This document shows, piece after piece, positions 20,676 through 23,618 of a DNA stretch of 64,000 nt. Each line of letters opens with the position of its first letter. Position 1 is the stretch's first letter. A model generated the notes under the pieces. That model ran no database searches, was not told where the DNA came from, and saw only the letters and a list, made by a program, of their open reading frames with translations. The position numbers and the translations under genes were made by a program. This stretch comes from Rhodamnia argentea (Eukaryota; Streptophyta; Magnoliopsida; Myrtales; Myrtaceae), in NCBI RefSeq assembly GCF_020921035.1, contig NC_063154.1, forward strand, positions 6,014,001 to 6,078,000. The letters are read 5' to 3'.

Positions 20676-23618
20676 CTAGGGATGATCTAGGGTGGTGGAG
20701 GCACCCAAATGTCCTCTTTCTCTTAGAATTCTGATGCCCTGGTATCTTCCTAACATCATTAGCGTAGCCATTGGATTTGTCCCGGGCGATTCCAGGAATG
20801 TCGACCCGTCTACCACCCTCAATCCCGTCACGCCGTAGACTCTGTACTCCTCATCGACCACCGAACCCACCCCGCAACCGCCGTGGTAGTGGTAGAATGT
20901 CCGCACGTTCTGCTTGCAGTACTTCGCGAGCTCTTCTCCTCCCGACAATTCTTCTTCCTTGTGTTCGACCCCCAGGAAAACAGAGACGGCCTGAGACCTC
21001 ACGACTCTCTGGAGCAGCTGCGCCATCTCTGTGCATGCCTTCATGTCCTCTTCCTTGGACAGGTAGTTGAATGTCACTGTAGGGTTCTTCCTCGGGTCCG
21101 TGCTGTTCAGTTTCAGCCTCCCTCTTGATGCTGGGAAGGCATACTTGACAGCAACCGGCATCCTCGTCGAGTTGTGACTTACGGGGAGGATTCCCGCTTC
21201 GATGATGAATTTGAGATCATGGGCTATGCCAGCAACTACGGGCGGCTCGGGCAGCCGATTCTGTGGTTTGGCATCTGCGAGGAGCGCAACGCACGGATTA
21301 TCTTGCATTCCCCGTCCCACTCCCCTGAGGCCACTCAGTAACGAGATGTTGAACTTCTTGAGATGCTTAGGAGGACCGATTCCGCTAAGTAACAGGATTT
21401 GGGGACTCCCTAGTGAACCTGCAGCTAAAATGACTTCACTGAACAATGTCGAATCATTTGCGCGATTGAGGTAAGCTTCGTATGATTCTTCCAAGCTCCC
21501 ATCGCTCTTGATGAACGCAATGCCATTCCTATTGATAGTACAGAAAATGGGTCTGTCATCTTGATATAGATGGTTTTACCTCGTCGGATATTCATTCGAG
21601 TATCCGGAGCACGAAATAGATCACAAAATATTAACTATGATTCATACTTAATATTCAGATCCCGTGACCGGACTCCAAAAAATTCTTCAAAACGTTATAA
21701 ATCGAAAGATTTTTCTTCTTTTTCAAAAAATTCCCCTTTTTTTTTTATCAAAGCACAAAACTTTCTGCGGGATAGTGGAATCAAATTGATTCTGACTTCA
21801 AACATTGGACTCCTGTTTCAATTAAGGGGGGTCATGGAAAGAACAGGTTCAAAATCACGATCAATTCCCTTTTCAAATCCTGCTGCAGCTGCACGAGCCC
21901 TTCCCGCGTGCCATAAATGACCTACGAATAGGAAGAATCCTAGAACAAAATGAGAGGTAGCTAACCAACTTCTAGGAGAGACATAATTGATCGCATTGAT
22001 CTCGGTAGCGACACCACCCACAGAATTTAAAGAACCTAAAGGAGCATGAGTCATATATTCTGCGGAACGCCGTTCTTGCCAAGGCTGTATGTCTTTTTTC
22101 AGCCTACTCAAGTCCAATCCATTTGGACCCCTTAGAGGTTCCAACCAGGGAGCACGCAGATCCCAAAAACGCATAGTTTCCCCTCCAAAAATGACTTCTC
22201 CAGTCGGGGAACGCATTAGATATTTACCTAAACCAGTAGGTCCTTGAGCGGATCCCACGTTAGCCCCAAGACGTTGGTCTCTAACTAGAAAAGTAAATGC
22301 CTGAGCTTGAGAAGCTTCTGGCCCAGTAGGCCCGTAAAATTCACTAGGATAAGCGGTATTATTGAACCAGACAAAGCAACAAGCAATGAAACCAAAAACA
22401 GATAAAGCACCTAAACTATAAGACAAGTAAGCCTCCCCAGACCATACAAGTGCTCGACGAGCCCATGCAAAAGGTTTGGTTAAGATATGCCAGATTCCGC
22501 CAAGTATACAAATGGAACCTAACCATACATGCCCTCCAATTATATCTTCCAAATCGTCCACACTAACAATCCATCCCCCGGGTCTCATTGTTATCACCTG
22601 CAAAAGTGAAAAGATATCAAATGGAAGTGTTGAGTATGTGACCTTCATGAGGCATTGGCCAAGTTCTTCCAAAGTTTGCATGAACGTAACGCATTAAGAC
22701 ATTGCGGTCTGAGTGGCTCACTTTGATTGCAGAAGAGGAGATTCCTCACGGTTGAATTTAAGAGCACGGTCAAGTTTTCTGTATGCCCTGCCTCAAGGAG
22801 ATCGGCCGATGTATGTCTGGTTCCGTAATTATCGAACACGCTTCCTCCAATCTTTGTTCCTTCGAGATGTTCCAGCGTATAGCCGTTATACGGGAAAATT
22901 CCCGCTTCAAGGAATCCGAACTCGGCGACAAACTGCCATGGGGTCAACTCCGGCTGGAAAACCACTCTCGACTCCACCCATCTGTATGCATCCTCTACTT
23001 GCTCTACGTCCCATCCGACTCTTTTGACAAAATCAGCATTTGCTCTGCTGAAGAAACCACCATTAATCGCGGAGGATCCTCCTAGTACCCGTCCTCTGTG
23101 ATTTGGAACCCCTTCTGTGGAGATGAAGCTCTGTGCCACCGACGAATACTCATCGGTATTGAGCAGCGAGAAACCATAGTATTTCCTATCCATGACCAGG
23201 GGGTTCCCGTAAGGCGATCCACCACGCTCGACCAACAGTACCGAGAATTTCTCAGAGAGAGTCGCGGCTAGAGGACATCCTGCAGTTCCTCCCCCGACAA
23301 TAATGTAATCGAATGACTTGCCAGAGACTTCTTTGAGGTCCGAAGTCATGTAAGGTGGCCTGTTTCCTAGAATGTAGGAGCAAGATGACCAAAAGACGAT
23401 ATCAGAATCCAGATCAATGTCAATTTAAATTTGCAATAATTCTGAAAGCATAATTCTGGATGACATAATCGATGCAACTATACTTACTTCCGGCGCAAGA
23501 TAAGAACTAGAAGGTGCAGTTGCATACCTTGGCACGGTGTACAAGGAAATGAAGATAAAATCTGAAGTAAAAGGATCGATCTTAATGAAAGCAGCTGAGT
23601 TTTATGCAGAATCGCCAT
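20676..23618 (-). pseudogene. HOTHEAD-like GMC oxidoreductase gene broken by a plastid DNA insertion
   Basis: Minus-strand exons: 23528-23618 (signal peptide, ends CTPCQ), 22722-23366, and exon 3 from 22597 to the stop at 20676, interrupted at about 21530-22577. Exon 2 carries the FAD-binding DYIIVGGGTAGCPLAATLS and GMC signature GRVLGGSSAINGGFFSRA. Exon 3 carries AGSLGSPQILLLSGIGP and the active-site region YHYHGGCGVGSV. Intron 2 has donor AAA|GTGAGC and acceptor TTTGCAG. Spliced, exon 2 LLFCNQ runs into SDNNETR, and the text resumes after the insertion as NGIAFIKSDGSLEES. So the insert lies in coding sequence; translation would meet a stop (TAG) a few codons into the plastid DNA. All other parts are open and conserved, which suggests a recent break. 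HOTHEAD-type flavoproteins act in cuticle or floral development; the exact role is not known here. An assembly chimera is possible. Confidence 0.85.
21530..22577 (-). other. psbC: Nuclear plastid DNA segment (NUPT): 3' half of psbC plus downstream spacer
   Basis: Minus-strand frame 22576-21818 encodes about 252 residues that match the C-terminal half of photosystem II CP43, starting [20 protein letters not shown] and ending [11 protein letters not shown] then stop. Full CP43 is about 473 residues, so the first half is absent. After the stop, about 290 bp look like the plastid psbC-trnS spacer. The segment has no stop or frameshift and almost no change that I can recognise, so the transfer is young. 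It has the same orientation as the host gene and lies inside its exon 3. The left limit is set by host codons NGIAF ending at 21527, the right by host SDNNETR. A few bases at each junction are shared and cannot be placed. Confidence 0.88.

Follow-up and report, generated by a model that had tools for sequence, protein, structure and literature searches.

Probable insertion of a young plastid psbC fragment into an exon of a nuclear gene for a GMC oxidoreductase, with a predicted null allele

Background

Exonic NUPTs have been documented (PMC7037861 and PMC11110229, both in excerpt) and are, like the insertion described here, plastid fragments in nuclear DNA. As excerpted, PMC7037861 places NUPTs and NUMTs mostly in introns or untranslated regions and, crediting Noutsos et al. 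2007, counts 45 organelle insertions over four species (yeast, human, Arabidopsis and rice), which involve 49 exons belonging to 34 genes. In moringa, exons are affected in 30 genes, six of these being only partly plastid (PMC11110229, abridged text). Across 30 angiosperms (PMC12572781, excerpt), NUPT-exon overlapping bases are given as above expectation in 16 and below expectation in 13; on these figures, exon avoidance by NUPTs is therefore not universal. The exonic NUPTs listed in the excerpts mainly became part of an annotated exon, whereas the present insert truncates an exon that is open on both sides. Another described case comes from Bog accessions of tomato, where a NUPT lies in the promoter of CYC-B (PMC4829152, excerpt). 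It, too, is a NUPT-bearing allele of a single nuclear gene, but a gain of promoter activity is proposed there, whereas the present insertion lies in an exon and a loss is predicted. A literature search on exon-breaking NUPTs, which excludes most subscription papers, returned reviews, surveys and this promoter case, and did not return the present insertion. Since exonic NUPTs are documented, the present case would be an ordinary type of event, well preserved and recent, and the general view of NUPTs is left unchanged by it.

As for the host, the closest known relatives are plant (R)-mandelonitrile lyase-related GMC oxidoreductases and PDB 8s2y, which both host halves match over the expected parts. 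Unlike these, the host gene is interrupted, and its product is a predicted enzyme. A search for literature naming 8S2Y found none.

In this work, we analysed the insertion and its host gene in a window of Rhodamnia argentea DNA (i.e. the whole stretch of 64,000 nucleotides). Very probably, a young plastid fragment was inserted by repair into exon 3 of a nuclear GMC gene, giving a predicted null allele. It would be a clean recent example of organelle DNA disrupting a coding exon, and the insertion could be used as a presence/absence marker.

Methods

The assembly containing the window comprises 346.7 Mb in 74 contigs, 11 of which measure 24-37 Mb. Junctions were placed with the help of older nuclear copies of this segment found elsewhere in the genome. 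In place of the species' own plastome, the age yardsticks were the other NUPTs of this genome and two contigs taken as plastid (L058 and L059). The comparison set consisted of 41 alignments from 39 other loci; L001, L009 and L014 were left out as self-hits, and L003, L056 and L057 as duplicates. A plastid reference was sought among genome contigs, where L058 and L059 were taken from the best 80 of 560 relatives, and among viral contigs, where no relative was found.

L058 (CAMUZI010000007.1, 28825-33580) is filed as an uncultured Clostridia MAG and carries a plant-type psbC, then tRNA-Ser(UGA), tRNA-Gly(GCC) and tRNA-Met; it probably represents a bacterial genome entry contaminated with plastid DNA. 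L059 (CAKZGI010000286.1), a 77-kb contig filed as a Trichormus MAG, has a psbC that is 95% identical to that of the insert, and is probably plastid too, perhaps algal.

Neutral change since insertion was bounded by Poisson arithmetic, three quarters of changes being assumed to alter an amino acid. Splice routes around the insert were listed mechanically. Their donor was either native donor 2 or a new one ahead of the first stop, their acceptors lay at most 400 bases beyond the insert, and splice sites were scored with rough matrices.

Results and discussion

Extent and junctions of the insert

The plastid insert spans positions 21527-22576 of the window (1,050 bp) on the minus strand (Table 1), which refines by at most 3 bp the ends of 21530 and 22577 given in a preliminary description. 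The psbC frame is intact over 252 codons plus the stop and aligns end to end with residues 222-473 of plant CP43 (E 8e-175), with a match to the Pfam family PSII; the 3' half of psbC is thus uninterrupted, as previously described. The insert is colinear with plastid DNA in its coding and non-coding parts, i.e. the end of psbC and then the spacer, when compared with the other copies in the genome, and its psbC part is also colinear with L058. On both sides it is joined to nuclear DNA, namely the two halves of a GMC exon, within a chromosome-size contig (C5, 32.3 Mb). Judged from the sequence, a 1,050-bp plastid match with sharp breaks at both ends is not a product of chance.

Table 1 Features of the interrupted gene and of the plastid insert (window positions)
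Feature	Position	Strand	Basis or remark
Exon 1 (predicted)	23528..23618	-	Start codon ATG at 23618; first intron base 23527
Exon 2 (predicted), open frame, N-terminal FAD-binding part	22722..23366	-	Pfam GMC_oxred_N; PDB 8s2y, E 4e-76; plant hydroxynitrile lyases, E ~1e-57
Intron 2 (predicted)	22598..22721	-	Acceptor at 22597; frame break in paralogues
Exon 3, 5' part (SDNNETR)	22577..22597	-	Sequence and splice model
psbC portion of plastid insert (CP43 codons 222-473 plus stop)	21818..22576	-	Sense with host; alignment to CP43, Pfam, other copies in genome
Premature TAG stop in host frame, just within insert	22563..22565	-	Reading with native splice sites
Plastid insert, part of spacer downstream of psbC (~290 bp)	21527..21817	-	Other copies of the segment in genome
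Exon 3, 3' part (remaining GMC_oxred_N, then GMC_oxred_C to stop), frame open	20676..21526	-	Pfam; stop at 20676-20678

At the 5' junction, one older copy (L036) extends as psbC upstream of 22576 (...GGAGGAGAA), where the window has host sequence (...ACCCGGG). At the 3' junction, four copies (L005, L023, L032 and L039) extend as plastid spacer past 21527, where the window switches to the GMC exon. At most three bases may be common to insert and host at the 3' junction, and at most two further bases within the insert may be host or shared at the 5' one. Exon 3 reads SDNNETR ahead of the insert and GIAFIKSDGS beyond it, as first reported, except that the N formerly placed before GIAFIKSDGS may equally be a D, because the junction A fits the plastid sequence too. 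Direct repeats of at least 12 bp were absent from the two junctions; the direct repeats recorded form one 16-nt family, located within the insert.

Compared by eye with the 545-aa ORF of a paralogue (L052), the two host flanks do not overlap. When they are joined directly in frame, 11 or 12 residues separate the strand ending in LLF from the conserved Gly, against 13 in L052 (counted by eye). An Ala stands two residues ahead of this Gly in all four paralogues (ATG, AYG, AVG and AHG) and is absent from the direct join (by eye), so a few host bases were likely lost and the direct join probably differs from the empty site. This putative small loss fits end joining.

Host gene

The host, modelled on the minus strand as a three-exon GMC oxidoreductase gene, has the same sense as the insert, and searching its two halves separately recognised both GMC_oxred_N and GMC_oxred_C (Pfam). 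The earlier reading of a sense-orientation insertion in a GMC oxidoreductase coding exon is borne out by these domains, which flank the insert on its own strand. For each half, the best PDB match is 8s2y, followed by plant hydroxynitrile/mandelonitrile lyases. The product is described as a predicted GMC oxidoreductase related to plant mandelonitrile lyases, an identity as mandelonitrile lyase not being claimed. Exon 1 encodes an N-terminus that is hydrophobic and signal-peptide-like by eye.

The acceptor of intron 2 scores 13.0 and ranks first among the 201 AGs of the 3.1-kb stretch (rough matrix). The frame is broken at the equivalent place in three of four paralogous loci (L053, L054 and L055; by eye), L052 being one continuous ORF. 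In the genome, the distal half retrieved nine matching pieces at five loci, the host locus included, and the nearest paralogues are ~40-50% identical. Neither a second copy nor an alternative haplotype of the locus was found in the assembly among the 40 of 53 candidates scored, the one match being the locus itself.

Age of the insert

No copy of this plastid segment longer than the insert was found in the genome, the next being 427 bp at 91% identity (41 alignments, 39 loci). Identity of the other copies to the insert ranges from 82 to 100%, but reaches at most 96% in those above 100 bp; the most similar copies are short, measuring 49 bp (100% identity), 60 bp (98%), 40 bp (98%), 51 bp (96%) and 114 bp (96%). 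Old nuclear copies usually decay by C-to-T or G-to-A changes, and 204 of the 421 base differences of the other copies relative to the insert are of this kind. At seven of the 1,014 covered positions (22301, 21992, 21907, 21685, 21682, 21681 and 21541), at least three copies differ from the insert and at most one agrees with it. These minority positions would bound the private changes of the insert near 0.7%, and several of them may be changes of the plastome; at 21907, L058 agrees with the insert.

Between the psbC part and L058, differences number 60, distributed as 2, 3 and 55 over the three codon positions. When the insert is set against L058, L059 and the four displayed PDB chains, its sole private residue is I417, whose base is also carried by two of the six other NUPT alignments covering the site. 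One private change in 252 codons would bound neutral change since insertion at ~0.8%. The three substitute yardsticks thus agree that the insert is young as measured against the other copies, and both the codon-position pattern and the comparison with other NUPTs uphold the youth first ascribed to it.

Two other plastid-like stretches were observed in the assembly. An older NUPT (G000:C5:3552982-3553773) contains one stretch of psbC twice, as overlapping direct copies spaced ~90 bp apart; each copy is 91% identical to the insert. On a contig outside the 11 large ones, ~690 bp (G000:C16:67985-68678) match, at 94% identity, the L058 sequence that lies upstream of psbC, and may represent a plastid segment within the mitochondrial genome. 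None of the matches to the insert among the 40 of 53 candidates scored lay on this contig.

Effect on the gene and alternative explanations

In the proposed scenario, a double-strand break would have occurred in exon 3 of the nuclear GMC oxidoreductase gene, and a linear chloroplast fragment, made up of the psbC 3' half and some of the adjoining spacer, would have been captured during its repair. Either non-homologous or microhomology end joining would have sealed the break, leaving no long target-site duplication and probably costing a few host bases. We infer both this repair mechanism and the existence of the assembled haplotype in the plant. The acceptor of intron 2, upstream of the insert, is intact; splicing there would be kept and the transcript would then enter plastid sequence. 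With native splice sites, the predicted protein has 256 residues and ends ...ETRGMDC*, in agreement with the stop anticipated within a few codons, and such a product would lack the C-terminal half. Since the acceptor is untouched, the transcript should still splice there and read into the insert, so that the allele is a predicted null, for which we infer loss of function. It may be either a recent polymorphic allele or a fixed knock-out.

The host could already have been a decaying pseudogene, in which case the insertion would have been harmless. Against this, both halves are open (the remainder of the gene being as clean as originally noted), GT-AG borders can be assigned and both GMC domains are recognised. 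Intact exons have little power on this point, as few disabling changes would be expected in ~1.6 kb at a divergence of at most 1%. We regard prior decay as unlikely.

Continued function of the host gene, with splicing that skips the stop and removes most of the insert, appears very unlikely. The mechanical listing returned 34 frame-restoring donor/acceptor pairs, two of which bypass the stop and retain all conserved host sequence after the insert; since stop-bypassing pairs exist, caution is needed before the allele is named null without RNA. Both pairs use an exon start at 21559, in the plastid spacer, and predict proteins of 539 and 549 aa in which the spacer-derived DRPIFCTINR replaces or follows the SDNNETR loop. 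This acceptor is however weak (score 0.6, rank 92 of 201 AGs) compared with the native one, which leads into the stop. Of the other candidates, the AG at the 3' end of the insert (exon start 21528) ranks 25 and is out of frame, and the top-scoring in-frame pair (exon start 21418, rank 2) deletes host sequence as far as the conserved SLGSPQ motif (129 bases). That the insert became an intron plus new coding sequence, the 21559 acceptor adding about ten spacer-derived residues to a loop of a full-length enzyme, is hardly to be expected; if true, the apparent knock-out would instead be a newly remodelled gene. More modestly, the plant may recently have lost a GMC gene; no close backup copy of it was found among the 40 of 53 candidates scored, and the insertion is useful for asking whether this enzyme was lost.

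An assembly chimera, in which plastid reads were joined into a nuclear contig and which had been put forward as a possible outcome, would also explain a nearly plastid-like insert but is highly improbable, as it requires two independent wrong joins that fall only a few host bases apart and leave both halves of the exon in place, where an insertion is one event, and as no other long fresh piece of the segment occurs in the assembly among the 40 of 53 candidates scored, the nearest-identical copies being short. A single insertion into exon 3 is preferred over two chimeric joins because the host halves are open and do not overlap.

Three further ORFs were observed in the window. A host ATG happens to share its frame with the psbC part, which yields a 256-aa ORF (22588-21818, minus strand) that begins MRPG and continues through the C-terminal half of CP43. 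By eye, a neighbouring ORF at 24251-24925 (minus strand) resembles part of a MYB-CC-type transcription factor, and another at 3727-5595 (plus strand) resembles a PPR protein with a terminal DYW.
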